64,000 nt of DNA from Croceicoccus sp. GTDB lineage: Bacteria > Pseudomonadota > Alphaproteobacteria > Sphingomonadales > Sphingomonadaceae. Below the pieces are notes generated by a model. That model ran no database searches, was not told the origin of the DNA, and saw only the letters and a list, made by a program, of their open reading frames with translations. Below, one piece after another: positions 46,666 to 63,145 of this stretch. The position numbers and the translations under genes are program-made. Location of the stretch: NCBI GenBank assembly GCA_002694745.1, contig NZMY01000013.1, positions 124,001 through 188,000 on the forward strand, in the 5' to 3' direction. Position 1 is the stretch's first letter, and every line of letters starts with the position of its first letter.

Positions 46666-46674
46666 TGTGGATAA
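46666..46674 (-). promoter_or_regulatory. DnaA box upstream of parA
   Basis: TGTGGATAA on the given strand, the complement of the exact E. coli consensus TTATCCACA. It lies 80 bp before the preferred parA start. A single box may occur by chance, but the position next to a partition/replication module makes it notable. Confidence 0.5.
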
Positions 46675-46753
46675 ACCCAATCCCGGTTTGCGCATTGAAT
46701 TAGTTTCCCGCACGATCCCGCTGAAAAGCTTCAATCGCAAGGCGAGGCGCGAA

Positions 46754-47950: not shown

Positions 47951-48070
47951 TGCACCCGCCTCGCCCAAGATTGCAGCGGCCTGCCCTTTCCCGGCTCAAG
48001 GTCATGATTTTATTTTCCTACCGCCCCGCACCGGCCGTAGCGCGCCGCGTCGACCGCGAAAGGACGCATG

Positions 48071-49171
48071 ATGGCACGCAAGCAAAGCGAATATCTGGCC
48101 GATCTGCTGGGGGATGACGAAGAAGACGGCGCCGCATCTGCCGCGCCGAACGTCGACACTTCGGGAACGCGGGACAAAGCGCCCTCCCCTGTCCCGCCTT
48201 CAGGTGACGCGCCGGACGCGCCGCGATCTTCGCGCCGCGGTTCGATGACCTTGCTTGGCCGCGAGAGCGCTCTGGCTCGCGTCGCGAGCGGCGACGTGAA
48301 GCAGGTCACGCAGATGCAGCTCGACCCGGCACGCGTACGGCCATGGGCCGGGAATGCGCGCTCCTATGAACACCTGACCGAAGAAAACTGCCGCGAGCTG
48401 ATCGATTCGCTGATTTCCGAGGGTGGACAAAAGGTTCCTGCCGTCGTCCGCCGGATTCAGGACGATCCCGACCATGACTACGAGGTCATCGCCGGCACCC
48501 GACGTCACTGGTCGATCAGCTGGCTGCGTGCGCATTCCTATCCGGACATGCGCTTTCTGGCGCAGGTCGTGGATCTCGACGACGAAGCGGCCTTTCGCCT
48601 TGCGGATATCGAAAACCGGGCGCGCAAGGACGTGTCCGACCTCGAACGCGCGCGCAATTATGCCGCGGCGCTCAAGACCCATTACGGCAACCACATGACT
48701 CGGATGGCCGAGCGGCTGAAGCTGTCGAAGGGCTGGCTTTCCAAGATGCTGAAGGTCGCCTCCTTGCCCGATGACATCATCGAGGCATTCGCCTCCCCCG
48801 CCGATGTTCAGCTCAAGCCCGCCTACCCGCTGGCGCAGGCCATGGACGATGCCGGACGCTCGAAGGCGATCCGTAACGAGGCACGAGCGCTGGCCCGCGA
48901 ACAATCGTCGCGGCGGGACCGGGGGCGCGAGCCCCTTCCCGCACAGGACGTCCTTCGGCGCCTCATGGAGGCGGGAAGCGAACGGACAAAGACCGCTCCC
49001 ATGGTGATACGCTGCGGCGGGCGTCCTCTTGTTACCGTAAAGTCGTCGACCCGCCAGGGCGTGACGATCCAGTTGCATTCGGGCACCGGCGCCAGCGACG
49101 AAGACATCATGGATGCCGTGCGCAGCGCGCTGGACAGGCTTGAGGACGAAGGTCGGGGGCTGCAGCCGTGA
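48071..49171 (+). CDS. parB: ParB-family partition protein
   Basis: A 366-residue ParB/RepB protein. The ParB N-terminal CTPase region has VRPWAGNARSYEHLTEENCR, VIAGTRRHWSISWLRAHSY (GxRRxx motif) and LADIENRARKDVSDLERARNY. A helix-turn-helix follows, MAERLKLSKGWLSKMLKVA. It should bind the parS-like palindromes at 49229, 49266 and 50175. The ATG at 48071 is chosen over an ATG 3 nt earlier because AAAGGA is better spaced. The stop lies 57 bp before the first parS-like site. Confidence 0.93.
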   Translation: MARKQSEYLADLLGDDEEDGAASAAPNVDTSGTRDKAPSPVPPSGDAPDAPRSSRRGSMTLLGRESALARVASGDVKQVTQMQLDPARVRPWAGNARSYEHLTEENCRELIDSLISEGGQKVPAVVRRIQDDPDHDYEVIAGTRRHWSISWLRAHSYPDMRFLAQVVDLDDEAAFRLADIENRARKDVSDLERARNYAAALKTHYGNHMTRMAERLKLSKGWLSKMLKVASLPDDIIEAFASPADVQLKPAYPLAQAMDDAGRSKAIRNEARALAREQSSRRDRGREPLPAQDVLRRLMEAGSERTKTAPMVIRCGGRPLVTVKSSTRQGVTIQLHSGTGASDEDIMDAVRSALDRLEDEGRGLQP

Positions 49172-49228
49172 TCGCACCGGCCAGCAAGGCCTCCCCTGCC
49201 CTAACCCGAATGCGCAGCGTGATTTCCG

Positions 49229-49250
49229 GATGTTTCCCTAGGGAAACATC
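49229..49250. promoter_or_regulatory. parS-like palindrome 1
   Basis: A perfect 22-bp palindrome centred on CCCTAGGG, core TGTTTCCCTAGGGAAACA. It lies between parB and rep. It shares GTTTCC-N4-GGAAAC with two more sites in this module and resembles the TGTTTCACGTGAAACA type of parS. Confidence 0.8.
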
Positions 49251-49265
49251 AGACCCTGCCCGACG

Positions 49266-49283
49266 CGTTTCCTCGGGGAAACG
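49266..49283. promoter_or_regulatory. parS-like palindrome 2, next to the rep start
   Basis: CGTTTCCTCGGGGAAACG, an 18-bp palindrome with one central mismatch, ending 12 nt before the rep ATG. ParB bound here would cover the rep ribosome binding region or promoter. Confidence 0.75.
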
Positions 49284-49295
49284 AAAGGCAGCGGG

Positions 49296-50543
49296 ATGAC
49301 CCGGGCCAAGCGCAAGACCGCACCCGATCAATTCGATCTCTTCCTGCCCTACCTCAGCGACCTGCCGCTGCGCGATCAGCGCGAGATGATGGAGCGCCCC
49401 TTCTTCTCGCTGTCGAAGACCAAGCGCATCAAGCCGATCGATTATACCAGCCCCGACGGCAAGCTGTGGGTCAATGTCAGCCCCAATGCCAAATACGGCA
49501 TGGCGACGATCTGGGATGCGGACATACTGATCTATTGCGCCAGCCAGATGGCCGACATGAAGCGCCGGGGCGTCAACGACATACCGCGGACTTTGCATGT
49601 CATGCCCTATGACATCCTGCGCTCGATCGGCCGGCCCACCACCGGGCGCGCCTATGAATTGCTCGCGCAGGCGCTGGACCGGCTCGTCGCCACGACGATC
49701 AAAACGAATATCCGTGCCGAAAGCAGGCGCGAGGCGACGTTCACATGGCTCGACGGCTGGACCCAGATCGTCGACGAAAAGACTGAACGCTCCATGGGCA
49801 TGACACTGGAACTGTCGAACTGGTTCTACGAAGGCGTTATGATGGAAGGCGGCGTGCTGTCCATCGATCCGGCCTATTTCGACATCACCGGCGGGCGAGA
49901 GCGGTGGCTTTACCGCGTAGCGCGCAAGCACGCCGGCGGGGCAGGGGAGGGGGGTTTCGCCATCGCCATGCCCACGCTGTTCGAGAAATCCGGCGCCGAG
50001 GGGCAGTATCGGCGTTTCAAGTTCGAAATGCTCAAGCTGGTGGAGAAGAACGCCCTGCCCGGGTACGGCTTGTCTCTGGAGCAGGGCAGGGGAGGGGACC
50101 CCCTTGTCCGCATGCGCAGGATCGACGGGAAGGATGGCGCCAAGACATCACGCCTCCCCGACGCCCCAGAAGGCGTTTCCCCGGGGAAACAATCGCCTGC
50201 GGCAGAAAAGCCCGTGTCACAGCCAGCCGATCCGCGTGAGCCAACCGCTACCTCGATTGTACCCAAAAAAGATTCCGCCACCGACGACACCGTCGATGTC
50301 GCCTCGCTCGTCCGCTCGACGCTGGCAGGCATGACCGATGCCGCCACACGGGGCTTCATGACCTCGGAGACAATTGAGCATTTGCGTGAGACCTGCCCGG
50401 GGTGGGACCTCTATGCGCTTCATGCCGAATTCGAAAATTGGGTCGGCAGCAAGCCGGAACGCCTGCCTGCCAATTGGCAGAAGGCCTTTATCGGCTGGGT
50501 AAAGCGGCACCACGCAAAGAACCGTCACCAGCTTCGCGCCTGA
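49296..50543 (+). CDS. Plasmid replication initiator protein (RPA family)
   Basis: A 415-residue initiator of the replication initiator protein A family found on alphaproteobacterial plasmids: QFDLFLPYLSDLPLRDQREM, MERPFFSLSKTKRIKPIDY, KYGMATIWDADILIYCASQM, HVMPYDILRSIGRPTTGRAY, TTIKTNIRAESRRE and LYRVARKHAGG. The two winged-helix halves typical of such initiators would lie in residues 10-260; the C-terminal 150 residues are variable, with a parS-like palindrome encoded in the linker (50175-50190). It should bind the iterons that start 226 bp after its stop. Confidence 0.9.
   Translation: MTRAKRKTAPDQFDLFLPYLSDLPLRDQREMMERPFFSLSKTKRIKPIDYTSPDGKLWVNVSPNAKYGMATIWDADILIYCASQMADMKRRGVNDIPRTLHVMPYDILRSIGRPTTGRAYELLAQALDRLVATTIKTNIRAESRREATFTWLDGWTQIVDEKTERSMGMTLELSNWFYEGVMMEGGVLSIDPAYFDITGGRERWLYRVARKHAGGAGEGGFAIAMPTLFEKSGAEGQYRRFKFEMLKLVEKNALPGYGLSLEQGRGGDPLVRMRRIDGKDGAKTSRLPDAPEGVSPGKQSPAAEKPVSQPADPREPTATSIVPKKDSATDDTVDVASLVRSTLAGMTDAATRGFMTSETIEHLRETCPGWDLYALHAEFENWVGSKPERLPANWQKAFIGWVKRHHAKNRHQLRA
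50175..50190. promoter_or_regulatory. parS-like palindrome 3, inside rep
   Basis: GTTTCCCCGGGGAAAC, a perfect 16-bp palindrome within the coding region of the initiator gene, in the part that encodes its flexible linker. Same core as sites 1 and 2. Confidence 0.7.
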
Positions 50544-51040: not shown

Positions 51041-51141
51041 TCGCTCGAACCCGCTTCAAGACGCTCACTTGTCATGAGCACCCTAGCCAGTATCGAGGGG
51101 TGCTGATGCATGTGTGACGACACCCCCACCGGGAGCTAATG

Positions 51142-51753
51142 ATGGATCTGGAACGCAAGCCGATGAATATGGGGCAAACTCCCGCCTTACTGATTGTTGA
51201 TATGATCAACGCCTTCACGGATCCAGCGTGCCCGCTCGGCACAGACGCCGCTAGCGTCGTCGAGGCCAACCGGATGTTGCTGACAGCTTTCAGGGCCCGC
51301 TCGCTGCCCATAGTATATACAACCGTGATCTTCCGCTGCGAAAGTGAGGGCAGGGCGTTTCGCAACAGAGTTCCTGCGCTTGAGGTTTTGCAGCCAGACA
51401 GCGAATGGGTGAAAGTCGATCGCGCACTCGAACCTTTGGCCGGCGAGTACATAACTGAGAAAAAAGGTGCATCGGCGTTTTTCGGGACCGACTTGGCGAC
51501 ATGGCTAGATCGACGCGGCGCCGATTCCGTGGTCGTGACGGGGTTGACGACCTCAGGCTGCGTCAGGGCTAGCGTCGTCGATGGATTGCAGCACGATTAT
51601 CCCGTCTTCGTACCTCGGCAGGCAGTGGGCGATCGCAATCCTAATGCACATGAAGCCAATCTGTTCGATATGCATGCCAAATACGCTGACGTTTTGGATC
51701 TCGCCGAGCTGCTAGCGATGTTACCGGGAAATGATACGCAAAGCAGGGCTTAG
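51142..51753 (+). CDS. Isochorismatase-family cysteine hydrolase
   Basis: A 203-residue alpha/beta hydrolase of the isochorismatase-like family. The catalytic triad is visible as Asp20 in ALLIVDMINAF, Lys107/108 in ITEKKGASAFFGT and Cys140 in TTSGCVRASVVDGL. Relatives include N-carbamoylsarcosine amidase, nicotinamidase and biuret hydrolase; the length and the SGCVRA motif suggest an amidohydrolase for a small N-carbamoyl compound, but no partner gene supports this. GGGAG precedes the ATG at 51142. Its base composition is lower in GC than the rest of the window, hinting at transfer. A weak hairpin GAGGCC-N6-GGCCTC lies at its end (51753-51770). Confidence 0.88.
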   Translation: MDLERKPMNMGQTPALLIVDMINAFTDPACPLGTDAASVVEANRMLLTAFRARSLPIVYTTVIFRCESEGRAFRNRVPALEVLQPDSEWVKVDRALEPLAGEYITEKKGASAFFGTDLATWLDRRGADSVVVTGLTTSGCVRASVVDGLQHDYPVFVPRQAVGDRNPNAHEANLFDMHAKYADVLDLAELLAMLPGNDTQSRA

Positions 51754-52174: not shown

Positions 52175-52414
52175 TTAAGCGCTGATGACCGCGATCTTCG
52201 CGCGCACTTCAACCGTGTCCTCCGGCTGAGCCAGGATCTCCTTTAGCGTGCCGCTTGCGGGGGAGGGGACCTCGACCGTCGTCTTTGCCGCCTCGATCTC
52301 CACGAGCGGTTCGCCCTCGGTGACGGTATCGCCGGGCTGCTTCAGCCAGCGCACGATCTCGGCGTCCTGCATGCCCATGCCGAACTGTGGCAGGATGACA
52401 TCGATATCTGCCAT
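52175..52414 (-). CDS. Free-standing lipoyl-domain protein
   Basis: A 79-residue single biotinyl/lipoyl domain: ADIDVILPQFGMGMQDAEI, WLKQPGDTVTEGEPLVEIE and AAKTTVEVPSPASGTL, with the modified lysine at Lys44 in EAAKTT. Lys at the hairpin turn preceded by EIEAA and GMGMQDAEI point to lipoylation rather than biotinylation. In 2-oxoacid or acetoin dehydrogenase systems this domain is normally the N-terminus of an E2 protein; here the frame stops directly after the domain, so no peripheral-subunit-binding or acyltransferase domain is present. It lies 12 bp after the E1-beta gene as last gene of an eight-gene operon. Confidence 0.9.
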   Translation of the reverse strand: MADIDVILPQFGMGMQDAEIVRWLKQPGDTVTEGEPLVEIEAAKTTVEVPSPASGTLKEILAQPEDTVEVRAKIAVISA

Positions 52415-52426
52415 GACATGTCTCCC

Positions 52427-53419
52427 TCAGGCCTCGACCGGCTGTTGCGCATTCATCAGACGGCGTGCAGCCCCGACGACGCGCTCCACGCTGGGATAGA
52501 GCGGCTTTTCGATCGGCGGGCTGAACGGCAGATGCGTATCTGGCGTGGTGACACGCAGCACGGGGCCTTTCAGCGCGTCGAACGCATTCTCGGCGATATG
52601 GGCGGAAATCTCGCTCGCCGCGCTGCACGTCATGTGTGCGGGATCGACGCAGATCGCTCGGCCCGTCTTGCGCACCGATTGCAGGATCAGCTCGCGGTCC
52701 AGCGGCACCAGCGTGCGCGGATCGACCACTTCCAGCGAAATGCCTTCCTTCTCCAGCTGAGCCGCCGCCTTCAGCGCGATCGGCACCGCGCCTGCAACCG
52801 CCACGACGGTTATGTCGCTGCCTTCGCGCTTGATGTCGCCCTTGCCCAGCGGGATGATGAAGTCCGGATCGTCGGGCAGTTCGGATTTCGACATCCAGCA
52901 GGTGCTGTCTTCGAAACACAGCACCGGATCGTCGCTGCGGATCGCGGCTTTCAGCAGACCTTTCATGTCATAGGCGGTGGCCGGCGCGATAATCTTGAGC
53001 CCCGGCATGTTCATGAACATTGCATAGGGCCGATCCGAATGCTGCGCAGCATTCGAGTTGCCGTAGAACATGCACGACCGGATCACGAGCGGCAGCCGGG
53101 CCTGACCGCCATAGATGTAACGCGACTTGGCGATGATCGAGCAGATCTGGTCCATCGCGGGATAGAGGAAGGACGAGATCGTCGCGTCGATGATCGGCCG
53201 CATGCCGACCATTGCCGCGCCCGCGCCCGCGCCGATAAAGCCGTTTTCGGATATCGGCGTGTCGAGAATGCGCTCCTTGCCGAATTGCTCGACGAAATCG
53301 GTGGTGGTGCCAAAGACATTGCAGCGAATGTCCTCGCCCATCATGAACACGCTTTCGTCGCGTTCCAGTTCTTCATGCTGCGCCTGTCTGATGGCTTCCA
53401 GGAATGTGGCTTTTGCCAT
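52427..53419 (-). CDS. Thiamine-diphosphate-dependent dehydrogenase E1 component, beta subunit
   Basis: A 330-residue transketolase-like beta subunit of the 2-oxoacid/acetoin dehydrogenase type: MAKATFLEAIRQAQHEELER, FMMGEDIRCNVFGTTTDFVE, DTPISENGFIGAGAGAAMVG, and SCMFYGNSNAAQHSDRPYAM followed by MNMPGLKIIAPATAYDMKGL, and the C-terminal VVDPRTLVPLD. Together with the alpha subunit it would decarboxylate or cleave a 2-keto or acyloin substrate and transfer the acyl unit to a lipoyl group. The ATG at 53419 is chosen because GGAG lies upstream; a GTG at 53434 is in frame. 30 bp from the alpha gene. Confidence 0.9.
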   Translation of the reverse strand: MAKATFLEAIRQAQHEELERDESVFMMGEDIRCNVFGTTTDFVEQFGKERILDTPISENGFIGAGAGAAMVGMRPIIDATISSFLYPAMDQICSIIAKSRYIYGGQARLPLVIRSCMFYGNSNAAQHSDRPYAMFMNMPGLKIIAPATAYDMKGLLKAAIRSDDPVLCFEDSTCWMSKSELPDDPDFIIPLGKGDIKREGSDITVVAVAGAVPIALKAAAQLEKEGISLEVVDPRTLVPLDRELILQSVRKTGRAICVDPAHMTCSAASEISAHIAENAFDALKGPVLRVTTPDTHLPFSPPIEKPLYPSVERVVGAARRLMNAQQPVEA

Positions 53420-53449
53420 GGGTTTTCGCTCCACTGATTAGGGGCCGCG

Positions 53450-54448
53450 TCAGGCGGTCAGATGGTCGGGGACGGGCAGGCGGTCGGTGAACACGTCATC
53501 GAACGCTTCCTCCGCCTGGGGATAGTCGGCATCGCGCGCATATTTGATCGCGTCGGCGACCTCGTCGGCGGTCTCGCTCTCGATTGTGTCTAGGACGGCG
53601 GGATCGACGCCTTCTTCCTCAAGCCTCTGGCGATAGATCACCAGCGGGTCGCGGGCCTTCCATTGTTCCTCCTCACCCTGCCGGGGCGTGAGGTTGCGGC
53701 CCATGTTCACCGCGTGATCGCCATAGCGATAGGTCTTGGTCTCGACGAACACCGGGCCCTTGCCCGATCGCGCATGGTCGACCGCCTCGGTCACGGCTTT
53801 CTCGACCGCGTCCACGTCCTGTCCGTCCACGATGATCGACTTCATCGCATACGCCTTGGCGCGGTCGGCCAGATCCTTGACCGGCACCGCGTCCGCGACC
53901 GGCGTGGACATGCCATAGAGGTTGTTTTCGCACACGAAGACGGCGGGAAGGCACCATGCGGCGGCCAGATTCATCCCTTCATGCGCGGCGCCCTCGCTGG
54001 TCGCGCCGTCGCCAAAGAAACACAGCGCCACCTGCCCGGTCTTCTTCAGCTTCGCGCCCAGCGCCGCGCCTGCCGCGACCGGCACGCCCGATCCGACGAT
54101 GCTCGTCTCGCCCAGACTGCCGATGGAGAAATCGGACAGGTGCATCGATCCGCCCTTGCCCTTGCAGACGCCCGATGCCTTGCCCAGCAGTTCGGCCATG
54201 AGCGGACGCAAGCTTGCGCCCTTGGCGATGGGATGGCCGTGGCTGCGATGGTTGCCGACCATATAGTCGTCATCGCGCAGCGCCATGCAGGAACCCACGC
54301 CCGAGGCCTCCATCCCCGCATAGGTGTGGAGCGCACCGGGAATCTCGCCCTGCGCATGAATTGACTCCGCCAGATCCTCGAATTGCCGGATGCGTTGCAT
54401 GCGCCGGTATTTTTCAAGCTTACGGCTGTTCGATTGCGTCTCGTCCAT
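53450..54448 (-). CDS. Thiamine-diphosphate-dependent dehydrogenase E1 component, alpha subunit
   Basis: A 332-residue alpha subunit. The diphosphate-binding motif is GDGATSEGAAHEGMNLAA ending in CENN, and the region YMVGNHRSHGHPIAKGA with GKGGSMHLSDFSIGSLG is typical of acetoin and pyruvate dehydrogenase E1-alpha proteins. The HRSHGHPIAKG segment is closer to acetoin:DCPIP oxidoreductase than to branched-chain E1. GAGAGG precedes the ATG. It lies 18 bp after the M24 gene and is followed by the beta subunit and the lipoyl protein, forming an E1-plus-carrier set without E2 core or E3. Confidence 0.9.
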   Translation of the reverse strand: MDETQSNSRKLEKYRRMQRIRQFEDLAESIHAQGEIPGALHTYAGMEASGVGSCMALRDDDYMVGNHRSHGHPIAKGASLRPLMAELLGKASGVCKGKGGSMHLSDFSIGSLGETSIVGSGVPVAAGAALGAKLKKTGQVALCFFGDGATSEGAAHEGMNLAAAWCLPAVFVCENNLYGMSTPVADAVPVKDLADRAKAYAMKSIIVDGQDVDAVEKAVTEAVDHARSGKGPVFVETKTYRYGDHAVNMGRNLTPRQGEEEQWKARDPLVIYRQRLEEEGVDPAVLDTIESETADEVADAIKYARDADYPQAEEAFDDVFTDRLPVPDHLTA

Positions 54449-54466
54449 GAATAATCCTCTCGTGGG

Positions 54467-55762
54467 TCAGCCGAGTGCCGCTTCGGGCTCTCTTGCAGTC
54501 TCGATCAATTGCAGGGGGGTGGCGTACATCGGCTCGGGCGCGCCGGCGGTGACCGCATAGACATTCTCCATGTGGCAGGGCCCCAGCTTCGCGCCGAAGA
54601 ACAGGCTGTCTAGGCTGACCAGCATGTCCTCCTCCATCACGAAGCCCTGCTTGACGCCCGACAGGCCCGCGGCAGGGAAGGGGAGGGGGATCTCCAGCGG
54701 CATCAACCCGATGCCATGCGCCACCACCAGCAGCTTTTCAGGCGCGGCGACGCCCTTGGACTTCAGATGTTCATAGCCGATCATCGACAGCGTGCTGGTC
54801 GATACGCCGGGGCGCAGCCGGTCGACCATCATCAGGAAGGCATCGCGCAATATGTCGTGCAGGCGGCGGTAATCCTCGCTCGCGCGGCCGACGACGGCGG
54901 TGCGGTTGATGTCGATCCAGAACCCGTCGAGCACGCCCTGCGTCTCGAGGATCACGATATCGCCATCGCGCAGCGCGCGATTGCCGGTGGTGCGAAACAG
55001 GTCGGGGATGAACTCGTCATCCTCGTAACTGCCGCCGAACAGCATCGCGCCTTCGTCCACCGGCACCACGCCACCCCGAACCATGAAGTCGCAGATGCCT
55101 GCCTGCACGTCGTTCCAGTCGACACCGGGGCCCAGCAGCGACCCGGCATGGGCGATCACCCGGTCGGCCATCACACCCACCTTGCGATAGGTTTCCAGCT
55201 CCTGCGCGGTCTTCACCACGCGCACCCGCATCATCAGGTCGAGGCAATCGGCGAATTCATGCGGCAGTTTCCCCGCGATCCCGGCCGAAATGCGGTGGCT
55301 GTCGAAACCGATGTGCGTGCCCGCCATGCCGTGATCGGCCAGCGCCGCGCCGATGGCGGCGACGATGTCGCTCTGGCACTCGCCGCGGATCGCGCCTGCC
55401 AGCGCCATCGCGTCCTCGGCCAGTTGCCCGCCCTTGCGGTCGGGATCGACATAGCGGCTGACCTCGCAGAAGTTCAGCATGTCGAAGGTGCGGATCTCGT
55501 CAAAGGTGCAGGCGGGAGTATCGCGGTTCAGCACCGCGACGATGCCCAGATTGGCCTCCGGAATCACCAATATCGCGGGCTTCGCCTCGTCGGCGAAGAC
55601 GATTGCCCCCGCAAACGGCTCCTGCTGGGTCCAGCGTTCGAGGATCGAGTGATAGCCCGTGGCATAGCGGACATCGTGCGGATGGGTCAGGACGACCGCG
55701 TCAAAGCCCTCCTCGGCCATCTTGGCGCGCAGTCGCGCCACGCGGGGGTTGGCATCGGTCAT
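54467..55762 (-). CDS. M24-fold (Xaa-Pro peptidase/creatinase-like) protein
   Basis: A 431-residue protein with the two-domain creatinase/aminopeptidase P layout: an N-terminal domain with MAEEGFDAVVLTHPHDVRYA and a pita-bread C-terminal domain from about 190. The expected metal ligands can be aligned as Glu273 (LETQG, usually Asp), Asp284 (IDINRT), His349 (AHGIGL), Asp385 (SLDSLFF, usually Glu) and Glu399 (CHMENVY), so two acidic ligands are exchanged in type, and the second His after GHGIG is missing (MPLEIP). It may be a lyase or hydrolase of a small molecule rather than a peptidase. It overlaps the cupin gene by ATGA. Confidence 0.85.
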   Translation of the reverse strand: MTDANPRVARLRAKMAEEGFDAVVLTHPHDVRYATGYHSILERWTQQEPFAGAIVFADEAKPAILVIPEANLGIVAVLNRDTPACTFDEIRTFDMLNFCEVSRYVDPDRKGGQLAEDAMALAGAIRGECQSDIVAAIGAALADHGMAGTHIGFDSHRISAGIAGKLPHEFADCLDLMMRVRVVKTAQELETYRKVGVMADRVIAHAGSLLGPGVDWNDVQAGICDFMVRGGVVPVDEGAMLFGGSYEDDEFIPDLFRTTGNRALRDGDIVILETQGVLDGFWIDINRTAVVGRASEDYRRLHDILRDAFLMMVDRLRPGVSTSTLSMIGYEHLKSKGVAAPEKLLVVAHGIGLMPLEIPLPFPAAGLSGVKQGFVMEEDMLVSLDSLFFGAKLGPCHMENVYAVTAGAPEPMYATPLQLIETAREPEAALG

Positions 55763-56256
55763 GCGGGCGCCCTTTCGCGGCCTGCTTCCCCTTGGGCCGC
55801 CTTCTCCTTGGCCGCCCCTTCGTTCGAAATGTCGTTGGTCATCTTTCCTTCGGACAGGTCGCGCAGGAATTCATGGTTGAAGACGAAGCGGATCTCGCCC
55901 TCCTCGCCGGTGAAGGCGACTGCGCCGTGCCCCATGAAGAGATATTCGGTGCGTTCCTTGCAATGCGCCTCGCTGTGACGCGAACCGATGGGTTCGTAGC
56001 CGTATGTGCCCTGCGGCGCGGAGCCGACGTCATAGATCAGCTCGCCCTTGGTGACGAAATATTCGCCCGGACCAAGGTGCCAGTGCGGGGCGAATGTCGC
56101 GCCCGGCTCCATTTCGACGAACAGCACCCAGTCGCCCGTTTCCGCGCTGTATCGCAGCAGGCGGATGCTGGTCCCGGTGCCCAGCATCAGCGGTTCGGTA
56201 TCGTTGATATTGACGATCAGGTCGCCGGGCTTACCGGCATCGTGCTTCTGGCTCAT
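55759..56256 (-). CDS. Cupin-domain protein
   Basis: A 165-residue cupin starting MSQKHDAGKPGDLIVNIND. The metal-binding first motif is FAPHWHLGPGEYFVTKGEL (His58, His60, Glu65), and the second motif has His94/His98 in GSRHSEAHCKERTEYLF. The layout resembles small cupin dioxygenases such as 2,4'-dihydroxyacetophenone dioxygenase or ChrR-like cupins. The last 25 residues are Ala/Lys/Glu-rich. GGAG precedes the ATG at 56256. The stop overlaps the M24 start (ATGA), so they are translationally coupled and presumably act on successive or the same substrate. Confidence 0.85.
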   Translation of the reverse strand: MSQKHDAGKPGDLIVNINDTEPLMLGTGTSIRLLRYSAETGDWVLFVEMEPGATFAPHWHLGPGEYFVTKGELIYDVGSAPQGTYGYEPIGSRHSEAHCKERTEYLFMGHGAVAFTGEEGEIRFVFNHEFLRDLSEGKMTNDISNEGAAKEKAAQGEAGRERAPA

Positions 56257-56302
56257 GGTCTTCGCTCCTGTTTCGAAAATGGCGGTCACATGGTGGCGGG
56301 CA

Positions 56303-57073
56303 TCACATTGTGGCGGTCAGGCCCTCATCGGCGGCGATCACCGCGCCGTGCAGCGCGCTGGAATGTGGGCCGAGGAGGAAGAGGATCAGGTCGGCGATCT
56401 GTTCGGGTTCCATGAAGAACTGGCGGCGCGGACTGGGGTGGCCGTCCATCAGCGCGGCGATCGCACTTTCGCCCTCGGGCGTGCGCAGGCCCGCCGTCAG
56501 CGGCGTGGCGACCGCACCCGGGCACACGCAATTGATGCGGATGCCCTTGGCGCCCAGTTCCGCGGCCAAAGTGCGCGCCAGCATGGCGACGCCCGCTTTC
56601 GACGCGCTATAGGCGCTGTCGCCCGCGCGCCCCGCGGTGCCGCTGACCGATCCGACGAAGACGATGGCACCTTCGCCCGCCTCAATCATCGCGGGCAGCA
56701 CCGCATTGGCGACATAGAAATTGCCTTTGAGGTTCACGTCGACATGCCGGTCGAACAGCGACACCGGGCTTTCGGGCACCGGATTGGGCTGCCACACCGC
56801 CGCATTGTTGACGAGCAGCGTGGCTGGGCCGAGTTCGCCCGCCAGCCTTTCCACCGCGCGTTCGACCGCCGCATTGTCCGCGATGTCGAGACAGGCGAAA
56901 CCGTCGATCTCGCCTGCCTCCTGCGCGCTTCGCAGGCTGTCCTCGCTCTCGTTGGACAGAACCGCCACCTTGGCGCCGCCTTCGCGCAGCATGCGTGTGA
57001 CGGCGCCGCCGATACCCGATGTGCCCCCGGTGACGATGGCGGTCCGGCCTGCAAAGGGCGCATCGCCGCTCAT
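56303..57073 (-). CDS. Short-chain dehydrogenase/reductase 1
   Basis: A 256-residue classical SDR: cofactor motif TGGTSGIGGAV, NNAAVWQPNP, catalytic Ser in VFVGSVSGTAG and Tyr-Lys in SAYSASKAGVAML, then CVCPGAVATPL. After the beta1 strand the region VAVLSNESED lacks the Asp typical of strict NAD enzymes, so cofactor preference is open. The ATG at 57073 overlaps the stop of SDR 2 (ATGA). Oxidises or reduces a hydroxyl/keto group in the unknown pathway of this operon. Confidence 0.9.
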   Translation of the reverse strand: MSGDAPFAGRTAIVTGGTSGIGGAVTRMLREGGAKVAVLSNESEDSLRSAQEAGEIDGFACLDIADNAAVERAVERLAGELGPATLLVNNAAVWQPNPVPESPVSLFDRHVDVNLKGNFYVANAVLPAMIEAGEGAIVFVGSVSGTAGRAGDSAYSASKAGVAMLARTLAAELGAKGIRINCVCPGAVATPLTAGLRTPEGESAIAALMDGHPSPRRQFFMEPEQIADLILFLLGPHSSALHGAVIAADEGLTATM

Positions 57074-57852
57074 TGCGCGGTGAACCCGCCGTCGACCACC
57101 ATCGCCGACCCGTGCATGTATCCCGCATCGTCGCTGGCGAGGAAACGCACCGCCTTGGCAATATCCTCCGGCTCGGCCAGGCGGCCGATGGGGTGGGCAG
57201 GTGCCAGCCCCTCGCGCGCGGCCTCGACGCTTTCGGCAAAGCCCTCGTCGACGAAGCGCTGCATGATGTGGTCGACCATGCCGGTGTTGACCCCGCTGGG
57301 ATGCACCGAATTGACGCGGATCTTGTAGCCGAGCGCCGAAAACTCCAGCGCCGCCGCCTTGGTCAGCATGGTCACCGCCGCCTTGGACGCGCAATAGCCG
57401 GTGTGCAGCGGCGACCCGATCAGCCCCGCGACCGAGGCGATGTTCACGATGGCAGCGCCGTGCGGCAGCTTCTCGCCGCTGCGCTTCATCAGCTGCGCGG
57501 CGATCTTGGTGCCAAGGAACGGCCCCTCGACATTGACCGCCATCTGCTTCTTCCAGTCGGCGAGCGAGGTATTCTCCAGCTTTTCGACCACCACGATGCC
57601 CGCGACGTGGACAAGGATGTCCAGCTGGCCGTGCTCCGCCTCGATCGCGCCGATCACGCGCGACCATGCGGCCTCGTCGGTAACGTCGAGCTGGTGGTAT
57701 TCGGCAACGCCGGTGCCGTCGCTGGTGCTTTCCGGAATATCCGCGCCGATCACATGCGCGCCCGCGCCTGCCAGCGTGCGGGCGATTTCCGATCCGATCC
57801 CGCCGGTCGATCCGGTGACAAGGGCGATCCGCCCGTCGAGCGCGCCGGTCAT
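57070..57852 (-). CDS. Short-chain dehydrogenase/reductase 2
   Basis: A 260-residue classical SDR: TGSTGGIGSEIAR, an Asp at the end of beta2 in VIGADIPES that favours NAD, HVAGIVVVEKLEN in place of the usual NNAG, catalytic Ser in IVNIASVAGLIGSP, Tyr-Lys in TGYCASKAAVTML, and SVHPSGVNTGM. The ATG at 57852 overlaps the stop of the ABM gene. Two adjacent SDRs suggest consecutive or stereospecific alcohol oxidations. Confidence 0.9.
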   Translation of the reverse strand: MTGALDGRIALVTGSTGGIGSEIARTLAGAGAHVIGADIPESTSDGTGVAEYHQLDVTDEAAWSRVIGAIEAEHGQLDILVHVAGIVVVEKLENTSLADWKKQMAVNVEGPFLGTKIAAQLMKRSGEKLPHGAAIVNIASVAGLIGSPLHTGYCASKAAVTMLTKAAALEFSALGYKIRVNSVHPSGVNTGMVDHIMQRFVDEGFAESVEAAREGLAPAHPIGRLAEPEDIAKAVRFLASDDAGYMHGSAMVVDGGFTAQ

Positions 57853-58166
57853 TGCATCTCTCCCATCCGGGCGAAGCTGCCGAGCGGTTCGCATTCGCGG
57901 ATCACCGGCTCACCGTCGAGGCAGGCCCAGCCTTCCTCCGACATGGCGAGGTGGTAGGGCATGTTGGCATGCCGTTCCTTCGCGGCTTCGTCGGCGAAGA
58001 CTTCCACGAAGTGAAAGCGGTTCGCATCGTCGCGGTCGCGCAGCACCTGGAACACCAGCGTATCGGGTTCGCCGGCGTGCACATCCTTGCGCAGCTGCGT
58101 TATCAGCTCGGCAAAGCGTTCGGCCTTGTCGGGCTTGACGCGGACGGTCATGAGTATGGCAATCAT
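57849..58166 (-). CDS. Antibiotic biosynthesis monooxygenase (ABM/YgiN-like) domain protein
   Basis: A 105-residue ferredoxin-like-fold protein: MIAILMTVRVKPDKAERFAE, TLVFQVLRDRDDANRFHFVE, and ADEAAKERHANMPYHLAMSE. The HFVEVF and Tyr-His pattern is typical of YgiN-like quinol monooxygenases and related small enzymes, though some members are non-enzymatic. It is the first gene of the eight-gene operon; its start is only 29 bp from the divergent TPR gene, so the promoter must be very compact or lie within that gene. The start is the ATG at 58166. Confidence 0.85.
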   Translation of the reverse strand: MIAILMTVRVKPDKAERFAELITQLRKDVHAGEPDTLVFQVLRDRDDANRFHFVEVFADEAAKERHANMPYHLAMSEEGWACLDGEPVIRECEPLGSFARMGEMQ

Positions 58167-58195: not shown

Positions 58196-59725
58196 ATGCC
58201 GGTGAGAGGCGAAATACTGGCCGATGCCGTGGCGGCGCTGCGCGGCGGCGATACCGCAAGGGCGCTGGCGCTGGCCGACGGCCTGCTGGCGAGAGATGGC
58301 AGCGATCCCGACGCGCTGACGGTGCGCGGCATGGCGCTGCAGGCCCGAGGCGCGGTGCAGGACGCGATCGCCGCGATGCGCGCCGCCCATGCCGCCGATC
58401 CGGCCAATCCGGCGCGCGCGGTCAATCTGGGGCTGGCCTTGAAGGCGGGCGGTCTGCACGACGAAGCCGTTGTCATGCTGCAGCAGGCGGTCGCAGCACG
58501 GCCGCAGCATGCGCCCGGCCTTGCCAATCTCGGCTCCTGCCTGATTGCGGCGGATCAGGCCGAGGAAGCGGTGGGCGTTCTCGAACGCGCGGTGGCGCTG
58601 TCCGGGCAGGACGCCGGCGCACAAAACAATCTCGGCGTCGCGCTGGCGCGCTGCGGCCGCGATGGGGAAGCGCTGGGGCGCTATGATGCGGCGCTCGCTT
58701 TGAAGCCCGCTTTCCACGAGGCGCGGCTCAATCGCGCCGATGCGCTGCACCGGCTGGGAAGGGCGGGGGAGGCGCTGCGCGAGGCGCAGGCGGTGCTGGA
58801 TGCCGTTCCCGGCCATCCGCGCGCCGCCAATGTCGCGGGCATGGCCTGCGAGGCCTTGGGAGAGCACGAGGGGGCCATCGCGATCTGGCGCGATGCGCTG
58901 GACCGGCAGCCCAGCCATCCGGTTGGCGTCAATCTGATGCGCCTGCTGCTGAAACTGGGGCGCGAGGACGAGGTGCCGCCCATCGCGGACCGCTTGCTCT
59001 CCGCCGCGCCGGGCAGCACCACGCCGCTCGCCTATCTCGCCGCCGCGCTCGACCGCGCGGGGGAGGGGGCTGCGCTGGACGCATTGTGCGAAATCGAGCG
59101 TTTCGTGCGCATCATCGACATCACGCCGCCTGCCGGTTTCGCGACGGTGGACGCGTTCGGCGCCGCGCTCGAGGGTGAGTTGCGAGCGCATCCCTCGCTG
59201 ACCTTCGAACCCGAAGGCCTCGTCACGCGCAAGGGGCGGCAGAGCGGCGAACTGGCCGATGCGGACACCCCGGCCATTGCGGCTCTGGCTGACATCGCCC
59301 GCACCGCGCTGGCGGAACACGCAGAGGCGATCGGAGAGGGTCCGGCGCATCCCTTTGCCGATGCACGGCCCGAAGGCTGGAGCCTGACCCTGTGGGGCAC
59401 GCTGCTGACCCCCGGCGGCGCGGTGGAGCCGCATATCCACGCCCCCAACTGGCTGTCGGGCGTCTATTACCCCGCCGCCATCACGGCGGACGACAGCGAC
59501 GAAGGCGCCTTCGCCATCGGTCCGCTGCCCGAAGAGCTGGGCGGTGGCGGCACCGCGCGCGTGATCCGGCCAAGGGCCGGGCGCATGATCCTGTTTCCCT
59601 CGTTCCTGTGGCACGGCACGCTGCCATTCAGCGGGGGGGGCGAACGCATCAGCCTTGCGTTCGACATGGTGCCCGATGGGGTGGGCCGCCCGCACCGCCT
59701 GCCGCCCAGGGCGACAAGGCCCTGA
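58196..59725 (+). CDS. TPR-repeat protein with C-terminal 2OG-Fe(II) oxygenase-like domain
   Basis: A 509-residue protein. Residues 1-300 are tetratricopeptide-like helical repeats (for example NPARAVNLGLALKAGGLHDE and AGAQNNLGVALARCGRDGEA). Residues about 370-500 match the putative 2OG-Fe(II) oxygenase family seen in such TPR proteins: His near 410 in EPHIHAPNWLSGVYYP, His near 471 in FPSFLWHGTLPF and Arg in GERISLAFDM for 2-oxoglutarate. It may hydroxylate a protein or peptide partner. It is divergent from the eight-gene operon and convergent with the TonB receptor (48-bp gap). Confidence 0.85.
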   Translation: MPVRGEILADAVAALRGGDTARALALADGLLARDGSDPDALTVRGMALQARGAVQDAIAAMRAAHAADPANPARAVNLGLALKAGGLHDEAVVMLQQAVAARPQHAPGLANLGSCLIAADQAEEAVGVLERAVALSGQDAGAQNNLGVALARCGRDGEALGRYDAALALKPAFHEARLNRADALHRLGRAGEALREAQAVLDAVPGHPRAANVAGMACEALGEHEGAIAIWRDALDRQPSHPVGVNLMRLLLKLGREDEVPPIADRLLSAAPGSTTPLAYLAAALDRAGEGAALDALCEIERFVRIIDITPPAGFATVDAFGAALEGELRAHPSLTFEPEGLVTRKGRQSGELADADTPAIAALADIARTALAEHAEAIGEGPAHPFADARPEGWSLTLWGTLLTPGGAVEPHIHAPNWLSGVYYPAAITADDSDEGAFAIGPLPEELGGGGTARVIRPRAGRMILFPSFLWHGTLPFSGGGERISLAFDMVPDGVGRPHRLPPRATRP

Positions 59726-59773: not shown

Positions 59774-62158
59774 TCAGTAGTTGATCCAAAGCTCCACGCC
59801 GTAAGAGCGGGGCGGGGCGTAATTGGTGAAGTTGAACAGGCCCGCGACCGAATTGGCGGAGACGCGATAGGTCTCGTCCAGCAGGTTGCGGCCATAGAGC
59901 GACACGCGCAGTCCGGACGGATCGGTCCAGTTGATTGACGCCCCGACCAGCGTGCGGGCCTGGCCCTGCGTGAAGGGGGCGTTCAGCGTGACCGATTCAA
60001 ATTCCGACTGGTAGTTGATGTCGGCGCCGATATCGATCTCGCCGAAATCGAACGGCGGGAACTGATATCTCGCGGTGCCGCCCACGGTCCATTCGGGCAC
60101 ATTGCGCAGGCCAAGCCCCGATGCATCGTCATTGGTCCCGTCGCCGTCGATATCGGTCAGGAATTCGAGATATTTGGCCTTTTGCCAGCCCAGCGAGGCA
60201 CCGAGCGTCAGCCCCTCGACCGGCACGGCGCTGCCTTCGACCTCAAGGCCGTAAACCTCGGCCTTGCCCGCGTTGGTGGTGCGGGTTTCCTGCCCCGGCA
60301 GGCCGGTGATCGGATCGGTGAAGGGCACCACCGCGTCGCGCTGAAGGTCGTTGTACTTCACATAGAAGCCCGCGACGTTCAGCCGCGCGCGCCGGTCTGC
60401 CGTCTCGGTCTTGAAGCCCAGTTCGAAGCTGTCGGCGGTCTCTTCCTCGAACGGCAGGGCGGAGGTCGCCGACATCGCCTGTTCGTTGTATCCGCCCGAC
60501 TTGTAGCCCTGGCTATAGGTGAAGTAGTTGTTGATATTGGGCGATATTTCCCAGCGATAGCCGGCGCGGATGGTCGGCTTTTCAAACTTGTCCGAATCCG
60601 AATATTCGGGCCAGAACCCCGTCTCGATGATCGAACGGCGCACCTGCGGGCGGACGGAAAAGCTCTTTTCCTCGACCGTGTAGCGTGCCCCGAAGAACAC
60701 GGCGAAGGGATCGCTGATGTTGTATTCCGCTTCGCCGAACGCGGCATAGCTGTCGACCTTGTAGTCGGCGGTGGACTGGTTGGGATCGCTCAGCGCGGTC
60801 GGATCGCCCAGGAAACGCAGGAAGCCGAGGAAGCTGGTCGCCCGCGCATCGAGCGTCTGGCCCCAGTACATGCCGCCGACGGTGAACTTGAACCGGTCCG
60901 AGAAGTCCGAGCTGAAGCGCGTTTCAAAGCTGTATTGCTCGCGCACGTCGTTGCGGGTGGACACGAACAGATAGGCGTTTTCGCCCGTGTAGTCCGACGG
61001 CAGGATCGACTTCACCCGGCGGTAACCGCCCACCGCGGTGATCGAACCCAGCCCCGGCATGTTATGCTCGCCGCGCAGATAGGCGCCGTCGACGTCGATG
61101 CGGTGGCCCAGCAGCGTGCCGGGGCAGGTCGCGGCGTCGATGTCGCCTTCGCACAGCGTGGTGCCGGTGTCGAACGGGTCGGTCCCGTCGGTCTGGATCC
61201 CTTCGAAGCCCACGACGTCGAACAGGAAACCCGGCGGCGTTTCATTGACCGACGGCGGCGAATCCCCGCGGTCGCGCAGAAATTCATAGGTCAGCATGAA
61301 TTCGGTATCGGGCGTCGCTTCCCAGAGCAGCTTTGCCCGCGCGTTGAAATAGCGGGTGCCGCCGAAATTTTCGCCCGTCGCACGCCGGCCCTGCGGCTCG
61401 TCGACATCGTTGTTCTTGGTGAGCTTGTAATAGCCGTCGCTTTCCTGGAACGAACCGGCGAAGCGGAAATACAGCCCGTCGGTGATCGGCAGGTTGAGCG
61501 AGGCCTTCACGTCCTTGGTGTCGAAGCTGGAATAGCCCAGCCGGATCTGCCCGCCGAGCGTGGTCTCAGGCCGCTTGGTGATGACATTGACCACGCCGCC
61601 CACGGTGTTCTTGCCGAACAATGTGCCTTGCGGTCCGCGCAGCACCTCGATCCGTTCGACGTCGAACAGGTCAAACAGCTGGGTCTGGACGTGGGCCAGC
61701 ACGAAATCGTCGACCACCACGCCCACGGCGGGTTCGAAGGTCAGGATGATGTCGCCAGTCGACTGGCCTCGAATGCCGATGGAGGCCGCGTTGAAGCCGG
61801 GCACATTGGTGATGACCACGTTGGGCACATCGCCCGCCAGTGCGCGGATGTCGGCGGCGAACTTGTTGTCGATCGCCTGCGAGGTGAAAGCTGTGACCGC
61901 GACGGGCGTTTCCTGCAGCGATTCCGACACGCGCCTTGCGGTGACGACGATTTCCTCCAGCCCCGTGGCCTGTCCCTGTTGTGCGGTCGGGGAAGGGGTG
62001 GGGGCAGCGGGGTCGAGCGCGCCGGGATCCGCAGGCATGTCCTGCGATGGCGGGGGCGCATCGTCCGTCTGGGCCAGCGCGGTCGTGCTGGCTGAACAAA
62101 ACAGGCCTGCAATGGCCAAGCGCAAGGCGCAACTCGTCTGTTGGCGGAATCCACCCAT
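59774..62158 (-). CDS. TonB-dependent receptor
   Basis: A 794-residue outer-membrane receptor. Signal peptide ALRLAIAGLFCSASTTALAQ, then a Pro/Asp-rich linker, the TonB-box-like EEIVVTARRVSESLQETPVA, plug motifs VVITNVPGFNAASIGIRGQS and VERIEVLRGPQGTLFGKNTV, and a barrel ending VELWINY. This is the large iron-complex-outer-membrane class that in sphingomonads imports many substrates besides iron, e.g. aromatic or carbohydrate molecules. GGAGAGG precedes the ATG at 62158. It is divergent from a TetR regulator and beside the uncharacterised operon, so it is the likely importer for that operon's substrate. Confidence 0.92.
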   Translation of the reverse strand: MGGFRQQTSCALRLAIAGLFCSASTTALAQTDDAPPPSQDMPADPGALDPAAPTPSPTAQQGQATGLEEIVVTARRVSESLQETPVAVTAFTSQAIDNKFAADIRALAGDVPNVVITNVPGFNAASIGIRGQSTGDIILTFEPAVGVVVDDFVLAHVQTQLFDLFDVERIEVLRGPQGTLFGKNTVGGVVNVITKRPETTLGGQIRLGYSSFDTKDVKASLNLPITDGLYFRFAGSFQESDGYYKLTKNNDVDEPQGRRATGENFGGTRYFNARAKLLWEATPDTEFMLTYEFLRDRGDSPPSVNETPPGFLFDVVGFEGIQTDGTDPFDTGTTLCEGDIDAATCPGTLLGHRIDVDGAYLRGEHNMPGLGSITAVGGYRRVKSILPSDYTGENAYLFVSTRNDVREQYSFETRFSSDFSDRFKFTVGGMYWGQTLDARATSFLGFLRFLGDPTALSDPNQSTADYKVDSYAAFGEAEYNISDPFAVFFGARYTVEEKSFSVRPQVRRSIIETGFWPEYSDSDKFEKPTIRAGYRWEISPNINNYFTYSQGYKSGGYNEQAMSATSALPFEEETADSFELGFKTETADRRARLNVAGFYVKYNDLQRDAVVPFTDPITGLPGQETRTTNAGKAEVYGLEVEGSAVPVEGLTLGASLGWQKAKYLEFLTDIDGDGTNDDASGLGLRNVPEWTVGGTARYQFPPFDFGEIDIGADINYQSEFESVTLNAPFTQGQARTLVGASINWTDPSGLRVSLYGRNLLDETYRVSANSVAGLFNFTNYAPPRSYGVELWINY

Positions 62159-62263
62159 CGGCTTTCCCTCTCCATGTTTCCGTTCGCTGTTTTGACTGCG
62201 AATCGGTTTCGTGATCGCCATCGTTGGGCGATGAGGACAAAAGAACATGGATAATCATTTTTA

Positions 62264-62299
62264 CCAAGCGAAAAACAAACATTTATGTTTTTTTCTTGG
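62264..62299. promoter_or_regulatory. Inverted repeat between TonB receptor and TetR genes
   Basis: CCAAG (62264-62268) and CTTGG (62295-62299) flank A-rich and T-rich tracts around the perfect palindrome AAACAT-TT-ATGTTT (62277-62290). It lies in the 183-bp divergent gap, 43 nt before the TetR start. It is a candidate operator for the TetR protein. Confidence 0.5.
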
Positions 62300-62341
62300 G
62301 CGGCTTCCTTCGAAAACCGCAGAACGCTAAGGTTTTCGCTT

Positions 62342-63145
62342 ATGGCCAAAATCACGCCTGAACCGGTCGAGACTGCCGAGACACAGCTTCACGTGACGCG
62401 AAGCGGTGCATCGCGCCGCGTGCCGCGCCGCTACACCAGCCCCGCGATGGCCGAACGGCGGCAACGCATCATCGATTGCGCGCACCGCCTGCTGGGCGAG
62501 GCGGGGGCCGAGGGCATGACCATCGCCCGCCTGTGCCGCGAGGCGGAGGTGGCGCCGCGCACGATCTATCGCCTGTTCACCGACAAGGACGGGGTGATCT
62601 TCGCCACCGTCGCCGACCGCATGCGCGAGGTGCGTAGCGTGATCGCGCGCAAGAACCGCACCTATACGCTGGACGTGGTGTTCGACGAGCTGGACTGGAT
62701 GGTCAGCGAGATGGAGCGCGACACCGAATATGCGCGGGTCGCGATCGGCTTCAACTTCGCGCTGAACCCCCGGACGGCCGAGGTTCGCGAATTGCGTTCG
62801 GTCGCCTATAACCGGTTCCGCAACTGGCTGGATCTGCAGATAGAGGCTGGGCATACGCGCGCCGATCTCGACCTGGAAAGGCTGGCGCAGCGGCACGTGG
62901 TCAGCGAGTTCCTCGTCTATCGCCGCTGGGCGATCGAGATCACCGACAGCGCCGCCTGCCGCATCGAATTGCGCTGCGCCTTCCTGCAAAGCGCCGCCGT
63001 GGTGCTGACGGGCGAGGCGCAGGAGATGGCGCTGCGCCAGCTGGCCGAATATCACGCCAAGCTGGGCATGTCCGAGATCGGCGCCGCCGCCTCCACCAAC
63101 CGCGCCGAGCGCGACGCGGGCGAGGACTTCGTCGGCCGCGCCTGA
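62342..63145 (+). CDS. TetR-family transcriptional regulator
   Basis: A 267-residue regulator, MAKITPEPVETAETQLHVTR at the start, with an N-terminal extension of about 35 residues before the TetR helix-turn-helix (AERRQRIIDCAHRLLGEAGA, MTIARLCREAEVAPRTIYRL, FTDKDGVIFATVADRM). The ligand domain (about 90-267) has no recognised signature. The start ATG at 62342 is chosen over 62285. It is divergent from the TonB receptor and convergent with the PQQ dehydrogenase; it most likely controls the receptor and perhaps the eight-gene operon. Confidence 0.9.
   Translation: MAKITPEPVETAETQLHVTRSGASRRVPRRYTSPAMAERRQRIIDCAHRLLGEAGAEGMTIARLCREAEVAPRTIYRLFTDKDGVIFATVADRMREVRSVIARKNRTYTLDVVFDELDWMVSEMERDTEYARVAIGFNFALNPRTAEVRELRSVAYNRFRNWLDLQIEAGHTRADLDLERLAQRHVVSEFLVYRRWAIEITDSAACRIELRCAFLQSAAVVLTGEAQEMALRQLAEYHAKLGMSEIGAAASTNRAERDAGEDFVGRA

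Follow-up and report, generated by a model that had tools for sequence, protein, structure and literature searches.

A conserved sphingomonad operon pairs an acetoin/2-oxo acid dehydrogenase-type E1 with a free-standing lipoyl carrier that may be unloaded by an E2 in trans

Introduction

In textbook 2-oxo acid dehydrogenases, the lipoyl domains are tethered to the core of the acyltransferase E2. The DNA stretch analysed here (the window; 64,000 nucleotides of Croceicoccus sp., assembly GCA_002694745.1, contig NZMY01000013.1, positions 124,001–188,000) contains an eight-gene operon that encodes both subunits of a thiamine diphosphate (ThDP)-dependent E1 enzyme (E1α and E1β) together with a lone lipoyl domain. 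The operon shares with the acetoin and 2-oxo acid dehydrogenase complexes the E1α and E1β subunits with a ThDP motif, the conserved glutamate and histidine residues of E1β and a lipoyl domain. Moreover, its first short-chain dehydrogenase (SDR1) weakly matches acetoin reductase and butanediol dehydrogenase models. Unlike in these complexes, the lipoyl domain is a separate protein, and neither an E2 core of either type (PF00198 or α/β-hydrolase) nor an E3 is encoded in the operon. The operon would represent acetoin/2-oxo acid-type E1 chemistry with a split, untethered carrier. We propose, in a judgement that is about evenly balanced, that the E1 charges a diffusible free lipoyl carrier as part of a catabolic-island module and that an E2 in trans unloads it, for which the best candidate is the E2 of a complete E1α–E1β–E2 set encoded elsewhere in the same genome (the companion).

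Free-standing lipoyl proteins and lipoyl groups provided in trans have been described in other settings. GcvH and LbpA are described as single-lipoyl-domain proteins, with a shared E3 proposed for LbpA (PMC6067878). The operon carrier is likewise free-standing, but it scores far below the gcvH model cut-off (although just above that of Pfam GCV_H), and its gene partner is a ThDP-dependent E1 rather than glycine decarboxylase or sHdr. In another context, an acetoin cluster with acoABCSL has been described together with LarG, a further lipoyl carrier (PMC3543383). In the actinobacterial mixed system of pyruvate and 2-oxoglutarate dehydrogenases, OdhA is reported to depend on the lipoyl groups of AceF, which are thus provided in trans (PMC10415282; PMC7568260). 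As would be the case for the operon, the E1 of that system works with lipoyl or E2 parts of another polypeptide; OdhA, however, combines an E1 with an E2 domain and borrows the lipoyl group, whereas the operon E1 has a lipoyl protein and no E2. No description of the gene set or of its substrate was found in the literature, searched as open-access full texts, in agreement with an earlier note on this DNA, made from the sequence alone, that knew of no described pathway with these genes.

Operon architecture

The operon runs on the minus strand from position 58166 to 52175 in the order ABM (antibiotic biosynthesis monooxygenase fold)–SDR1–SDR2–cupin–M24–E1α–E1β–lipoyl (Table 1). Three ATGA overlaps join ABM to SDR1 (57849–57852), SDR1 to SDR2 (57070–57073) and the cupin gene to the M24 gene (55759–55762). 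The remaining genes are separated by 46 bp (SDR2 to the cupin ATG at 56256, the largest gap), 30 bp (E1α to the E1β ATG at 53419), 18 bp (M24 to E1α) and 12 bp (E1β to lipoyl). The open reading frames (ORFs) and the Pfam matches, all of which lie far above their cut-offs, confirm the eight-gene minus-strand operon that the earlier note had described with its three overlaps and gaps of at most 46 bp. The absence of an E2 core and of an E3 gene beside the operon, also claimed there, is borne out by inspection of the ORF list, Pfam matches and hidden Markov model (HMM) searches, and the operon itself contains no E3. No operon gene has a thioesterase or acyltransferase family match in Pfam or NCBIfam. 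No shared gene order with a complete, already known cluster for acetoin or branched-chain degradation was seen; the earlier note had named such synteny as a refutation of its own reading.

Table 1. Operon genes and other features of the window (window coordinates)
Feature	Position	Strand	Basis
ABM protein, 105 aa	57849–58166	−	PF03992, 61.4 bits
SDR1, short-chain dehydrogenase, 260 aa from ATG	57070–57852	−	adh_short_C2, 179 bits
SDR2, short-chain dehydrogenase, 256 aa	56303–57073	−	adh_short, 172 bits
ChrR/Dke1-type cupin, 165 aa, H58/H60/H94	55759–56256	−	Cupin_7, 113 bits; PDB matches
M24 (pita-bread) protein, 431 aa	54467–55762	−	PF00557, 72.6 bits; alignments; fold search
E1α, ThDP-binding (GDG...NN), 332 aa	53450–54448	−	PF00676 (E1_dh), 256 bits; trees
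E1β, 330 aa, E58 and H127 invariant	52427–53419	−	PF02779/PF02780 (Transket_pyr/C), 111/122 bits; alignment; trees
Free-standing lipoyl carrier, 79 aa, K44 in EAAKTTVE	52175–52414	−	PF00364 (Biotin_lipoyl), 68.3 bits
TPR (tetratricopeptide repeat) and 2OG-Fe(II) (2-oxoglutarate/iron) oxygenase-like protein, frequent neighbour	58196–59725	+	Pfam
TonB-dependent receptor, frequent neighbour	59774–62248	−	Pfam
TetR-type regulator, frequent neighbour	62285–63145	+	Pfam
PQQ (pyrroloquinoline quinone)-type quinoprotein dehydrogenase, C-terminal part, runs past window end	63148–64000	−	cluster membership
ParA-like, ParB-like and RepA-type genes	46613–50543	+	
Isochorismatase-family hydrolase	51139–51753	+	
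Pyridine nucleotide-disulphide oxidoreductase	5925–7337	+	CANTGC motif
Trehalose/glycogen-type block	21524–38386	−	Pfam

Conservation and distribution

Loci were located with the M24 protein as a tracer, which was found in 7 of 199 sampled genomes of the family, in five plasmid records and at 41 loci of a genome collection. Conservation was scored over 28 sphingomonad loci, namely the window, four of the five operon plasmids (the fifth, NZ_CP060053.1, lies outside the set) and 23 genome loci (L020–L042), among which close species are partly repeated; genes in unannotated loci were called with a home-made codon score. The M24 gene is present in all 28 loci, the cupin, E1α, E1β and free lipoyl genes in 27 each, ABM in 23, SDR1 in 20 and SDR2 in 17. 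The neighbouring TonB-dependent receptor, TPR/2OG protein and TetR-type regulator are each present in 25 loci, and the PQQ dehydrogenase in 22. All eight genes keep their order in 13 of the 28 loci and the cupin–M24–E1α–E1β–lipoyl core in 25. The single lipoyl miss (L020) is a short contig that ends inside E1α. Where present, the lipoyl gene starts 9–26 bp behind E1β in 26 of 27 loci, with an overlapping start call in L028, and its product is called at 79–80 residues in 24 (exceptions: L021, 69; L035, 75; L028, 100).

The copy of the operon on a Croceicoccus marinus plasmid encodes an M24 protein that is 94% identical. Relative to C. marinus, the ratio of non-synonymous to synonymous substitution rates (dN/dS) is 0.06–0.20 over the eight genes and 0.089 for the free lipoyl gene, which is under purifying selection. 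Because the gene order recurs and the dN/dS values are low, the operon is more than a chance assembly, and the survey supports it as a genuine conserved unit that combines the E1 with a free-standing lipoyl protein. The suggestion of the earlier note that the gene order mirrors the order of reactions was not supported. The Sphingobium phenoxybenzoativorans locus (L042) keeps the E1α, E1β and lipoyl genes with the PQQ dehydrogenase, TonB receptor, TPR/2OG, TetR and M24 genes, and no ABM, cupin or operon-type SDR gene was found across the 21 kb read.

The operon is rare. At an E-value of 1e-24, a profile of the lipoyl protein matched the Croceicoccus genome alone among 398 genomes of the phylum, and a profile of the operon-type E1β reached 642 bits in this genome and at most 394 bits elsewhere (289 genomes of the class). 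Several of the E-values reported here, those of the companion, E2-core, lipoyl and acetoin-type core searches, rest on small home-made HMMs.

The E1 pair and the free lipoyl carrier

The ThDP motif is present in E1α, and the E1β glutamate and histidine are invariant in an alignment of 19 rows. The lipoyl protein contains neither an E2 core nor a subunit-binding domain, and its predicted modification site is K44. Among the matches listed, the E1, lipoyl and SDR models all score below their NCBIfam cut-offs; the best NCBIfam match of the lipoyl protein is the acetoin-dehydrogenase E2, across the lipoyl part of that model (79 bits).

Biotin carriers carry M-K-M around the modified lysine, and the context of K44 is A-K-T. 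This difference bears on an alternative in which the small protein would serve as a redox or methylene carrier in the manner of GcvH or LbpA, or as a biotin carrier, rather than as an acyl carrier. Single-lipoyl-domain proteins of the former kind exist (PMC6067878), and the Pfam GCV_H match of 22.8 bits barely passes the cut-off of 22.2. The gcvH model NF002270, however, gives 20.4 bits against a cut-off of 117, compared with 68 bits for Biotin_lipoyl and the acetoin-type match above, and the lipoyl gene follows E1β closely in nearly every locus (26 of 27). With these features, a non-acyl carrier appears very improbable.

Search for an E2 and an E3

E2 cores were searched with an HMM of PF00198-type cores, which cannot see α/β-hydrolase cores; with this HMM, no PF00198-type core was found in the DNA of the 28 sphingomonad loci. 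Acetoin-type E2s carry an α/β-hydrolase core and are common among the loci of the class. No such core was found in the window or in L016–L060 with a narrow HMM built from three cores, which sees close kin alone because it missed an annotated α/β-hydrolase in L017, ∼10 kb from the operon.

The Croceicoccus genome has eight PF00198 matches, seven with E-values below 1e-55 and one a fragment with a stop codon. Matches occur in all 20 genomes and records searched, with 4–10 in each of 16 genomes. The idea that a lone E2 core elsewhere in the genome completes the operon was dropped, as core-sized frames (<270 residues) that lie off contig edges and are not fragments were seen in 3 of the 20 genomes and records. 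In the Croceicoccus genome, the match at C27:893–1558 (locus L076) spans a 228-residue frame, but the ORF has just 185 residues; a cytochrome P450-like gene lies beside it. An intact free E2 core of 232 residues in a similar setting is found in C. marinus (L099). The Croceicoccus genome also contains a second E1α–E1β–lone lipoyl set (C32:4632–7640, locus L072), in which the 77-residue lipoyl gene is followed by a small E2 core with DPRAIDG replacing the DHRxxDG motif and then by a gene for a 235-residue protein.

E3-like genes were recognized by eye, from the start of the sequence, on contigs C11 and C52 of the Croceicoccus genome. The window itself encodes a pyridine nucleotide-disulphide oxidoreductase with a CANTGC motif, possibly of the E3 type, 45 kb from the operon, and the gene beside it resembles an aldehyde dehydrogenase by eye.

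Ancestry and split sister systems

Trees were built from 47 E1α and 47 E1β sequences, in which the C32 E1 and the L045 E1α form long branches. The operon E1s fall into one clade of 27 sequences in both trees. Their closest relatives found are two clusters of Sphingomonas sp. Y57 (L169 and L170; clade support 100/99 for E1β and 90/97 for E1α), whose E1β and lipoyl proteins are 54–55% and 49–50% identical to those of the operon. The Y57 clusters share with the operon a lone lipoyl protein (81 residues) behind the E1α–E1β pair, but they differ in that a free PF00198 core gene follows (233 and 237 residues), in which the DHRAIDG motif is intact, and in that no operon-type cupin was matched. A 608-residue M24-like protein with a weak PepQ match is a neighbour in L169, and an SDR1-like protein (42%) in L170. 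The weak PepQ (M24) match of the former (L169:4420–6246) is C-terminal, and its gene overlaps that of the free E2 core. The operon E1β also groups with two actinomycete E1s (99/93), both of which are accompanied by a lone lipoyl protein of 75–79 residues; in the actinomycete locus L057, a lone lipoyl protein occurs together with a free E2 core of 261 residues.

Because lone lipoyl proteins are present in the Y57 sister clusters and in the actinomycete clusters, it seems to be an ancient feature of this E1 lineage, and the operon branch lacks an adjoining E2 core. This ancestry bears on a further alternative, that the lone lipoyl gene is the remnant of a decayed E2. Relatives do have a full or a split E2, as a relic would lead one to expect, but the trait was already in place in the sister clusters, and the operon gene is kept in 27 of the 28 loci, 24 times at a near-constant length, under the selection described above. 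A relic is hardly credible.

Among the other best loci of the class (29), at least four (L140, L148, L154 and L159, all read over short stretches) also have a lone lipoyl frame behind E1β, and neither type of E2 core was found in them. This count is a lower one, since L149 (a 412-residue frame with a lipoyl domain at residues 337–408) may be another lone lipoyl gene. In L143 (162–1496) and its kin L141 and L144, frames also follow E1β. The L143 frame contains two Pfam lipoyl domains and ∼200 further residues without a Pfam family at an E-value of 1e-5, possibly a divergent E2.

That no E2 core was found in the 28 sphingomonad loci, whereas relatives keep one, or in these other alphaproteobacterial loci would fit two independent complexes. 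The lone-lipoyl E1 would then discharge its acyl group with no E2 involved, for instance by hydrolysis or straight onto a small acceptor molecule, and the companion would serve a different step. In the sister systems, however, the E2 core is still present with an intact active-site motif, and no thioesterase or acyltransferase family was matched by the operon genes. We consider such a pair of independent complexes improbable, and we likewise give little credence to E2-free chemistry, in which the carrier would deliver the acyl group to a pathway enzyme or to water without E2 or coenzyme A (CoA) and the companion would be unrelated to turnover.

More distant M24-linked clusters were examined at 12 loci, on contigs several of which are short. 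An SDR2 that is 63% identical is found in one of them (L047), and an E2 was seen in four (L044, L046, L047 and L049). The distant E1s placed in the trees (10 E1α and 9 E1β), from metagenome bins with various proteobacterial names and one actinobacterial name, are sister to the companion (100/99 for E1α and 96/89 for E1β) rather than to the operon E1, and the trees thus lend no support to the idea that these clusters are direct orthologs of the operon with a full E2.

The companion set

The companion lies on the contig of the window (C35) but outside the window, 72 kb from the operon. Its E2 gene (C35:100324–101757) is directly behind its E1α–E1β pair (101772–103790). The companion lies ∼20 kb before the window start, and the region around it (C35:94001–112000, locus L069) also encodes acyl-CoA-dehydrogenase-like proteins, a Rieske oxygenase, a protein resembling thiolases and a KstD-like flavoprotein (below model cut-offs). 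Orthologs of the companion are found on the four mapped operon plasmids, with identities of 72–95% (E1α), 69–96% (E1β) and 47–91% (E2), at distances from the operon of ∼13 kb (PP1Y), 20 kb (C. marinus), 25 kb (RAC03) and 39 kb (SA1). The companion E1β is also present on the fifth plasmid, and thus on five of five.

The companion E1β profile matches all 21 operon genomes tested (of 24; L020, L023 and L036 were left out). In each of these genomes, at 30 of 30 loci (L100–L129), genes for an E1α and an E2 core lie next to it, and an independent PF00198 search places an E2 core by the companion in 18 of the 18 genomes located in both searches. In the family sample, the companion occurs in 26 of 199 genomes, comprising all seven with the operon and 19 of the 192 without it. 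The co-occurrence is significant by genome (p = 3.0e-7; 1.1e-7 with a stricter score) and by genus (p = 1.4e-4), where kinship is handled by the genus count only and some genomes belong both to the set of 21 and to the family sample.

An E2 in trans is favoured because the complete companion is found in 21 of 21 operon genomes and the Y57 relatives keep a free E2 core. The earlier note had left two fates for the acyl group, transfer to an E2 elsewhere or release by a new route; the circumstantial evidence given here favours the former, and the latter is not needed.

Several observations weigh against the assignment of this role to the companion. Operon and companion share a contig in eight of the 21 genomes, 13 to 115 kb apart, and lie on separate contigs in 13, among them G608, in which the contig of the operon is 1.7 Mb long; the two are thus not closely linked as a rule. 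Nor is the companion confined to operon genomes, as it is frequent without the operon both in the family sample (19 of 192) and on plasmids of Novosphingobium aromaticivorans, Novosphingobium sp. ES2-1 and other Novosphingobium and Sphingobium. As the companion is equipped with a separate E1 and lipoyl domain, it may perform another step of the same catabolism, and co-occurrence is unable to separate the supply of an E2 from such an independent step. On the phylogenetic side, the E1α trees place the single actinomycete row, a long branch, less clearly than the E1β trees, and the distant M24 clusters are uninformative on the role of a lone-lipoyl E1 because their E1s are sister to the companion.

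Resident E2s could also serve the operon, given the 4–10 PF00198 matches in each of 16 genomes. An E2 of the pyruvate dehydrogenase, branched-chain or another complex would then unload the carrier, and the companion would be a mere fellow member of the island. The presence of PF00198 matches in every genome or record searched (eight in Croceicoccus) and the placement of the companion on another contig in 13 genomes would agree with such a service. If a resident E2 did the unloading, however, no companion would be required; yet the companion E1β, which no more than 26 of the 199 family genomes carry, accompanies the operon in every operon genome tested. We regard a resident E2 as unlikely, though as the alternative to be taken most seriously.

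Putative route and accessory enzymes

In the proposed route with an E2 in trans, the operon would act as a module of a plasmid-borne catabolic island whose substrate enters through the outer membrane. The PQQ dehydrogenase and the SDRs would oxidize hydroxyl groups to ketones, and the cupin and the altered M24 protein would cleave a C–C or neighbouring bond of the keto intermediate in those branches that need them. Judging from family chemistry, the ThDP-containing E1 (α2β2) would cleave an acyloin, an α-diketone or a 2-oxo acid and reductively acylate the lipoate on K44 of the free carrier. The untethered carrier would then diffuse to the E2 in trans, most probably that of the companion, for the formation of acyl-CoA, and a shared E3 would reoxidize it. 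A stable lineage with a free lipoyl arm, together with sisters that have a freed E2 core, would provide a natural test of the need for tethering and substrate channelling. If the proposal is correct, it would give a role to small proteins annotated as 'lipoyl domain-containing proteins' and a function to an apparently uncharacterized, plasmid-carried sphingomonad island with an M24-fold enzyme and a Dke1-like cupin.

Acetylacetone dioxygenase (Dke1) and 2,4'-dihydroxyacetophenone dioxygenase cleave C–C bonds next to carbonyls. The operon cupin shares its fold and three-histidine pattern with both Dke1 and the latter enzyme, and the three histidines are invariant in a 12-row alignment, from which L022 and L035 were left out. 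Sequence searches of the PDB match 3BAL (1.6e-10) and 2O1Q (1.9e-12). In a fold search with the cupin model (predicted local distance difference test score, pLDDT, 79), 3bal (acetylacetone dioxygenase) ranks first, followed by 2o1q, and the 2,4'-dihydroxyacetophenone dioxygenase structures 5bpx and 4p9g rank sixth and eighth. Sequence identity is 24–28% to 3bal and 2o1q and 16% to 5bpx and 4p9g. O2 consumption is predicted for the operon cupin.

The M24 protein has retained the pita-bread fold (AlphaFold2, pLDDT 82; Foldseek) that it has in common with prolidase, creatinase, ectoine hydrolase and the dimethylsulphoniopropionate lyase DddP (Foldseek E-values 1e-21 to 2e-16 and 14–21% identity among the 50 matches listed). 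No NCBIfam cut-off was reached by this protein. In an alignment to solved prolidases, the D-D-H-E-E metal ligands correspond to E273, D284, H349, D385 and E399, of which E273, D284, H349 and E399 are invariant in 24 sequences. Because the metal-ligand positions are altered, ordinary peptidase activity is unlikely, as far as can be judged from the sequence.

The 25 NCBIfam matches listed for SDR1 are all under their cut-offs. Two other members of the PQQ dehydrogenase cluster score 646–692 bits against the glucose/quinate/shikimate dehydrogenase model (cut-off 833), and the C. marinus ortholog is annotated as a PQQ-binding-like β-propeller protein. The operon islands also contain Rieske oxygenases, thiolases, a MaoC protein, an acyl-CoA ligase, a P450 and a KstD-like flavoprotein (below the cut-off), which suggests an alicyclic or aromatic substrate; no particular compound is claimed.

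Genomic neighbourhood

Contig C35, which contains the window, is 270,818 bases long and belongs to a genome of 4.02 Mb. The contig is likely a plasmid, because of its ParA-, ParB- and RepA-like genes and the plasmid copy of the operon in C. marinus, and these genes likely constitute its replication and partition region. Just past the lipoyl gene, the opposite strand encodes an isochorismatase-family hydrolase. Farther away on the minus strand, the trehalose/glycogen-type block includes GlgE-like, GlgB-like and α-amylase/maltogenic-amylase genes.

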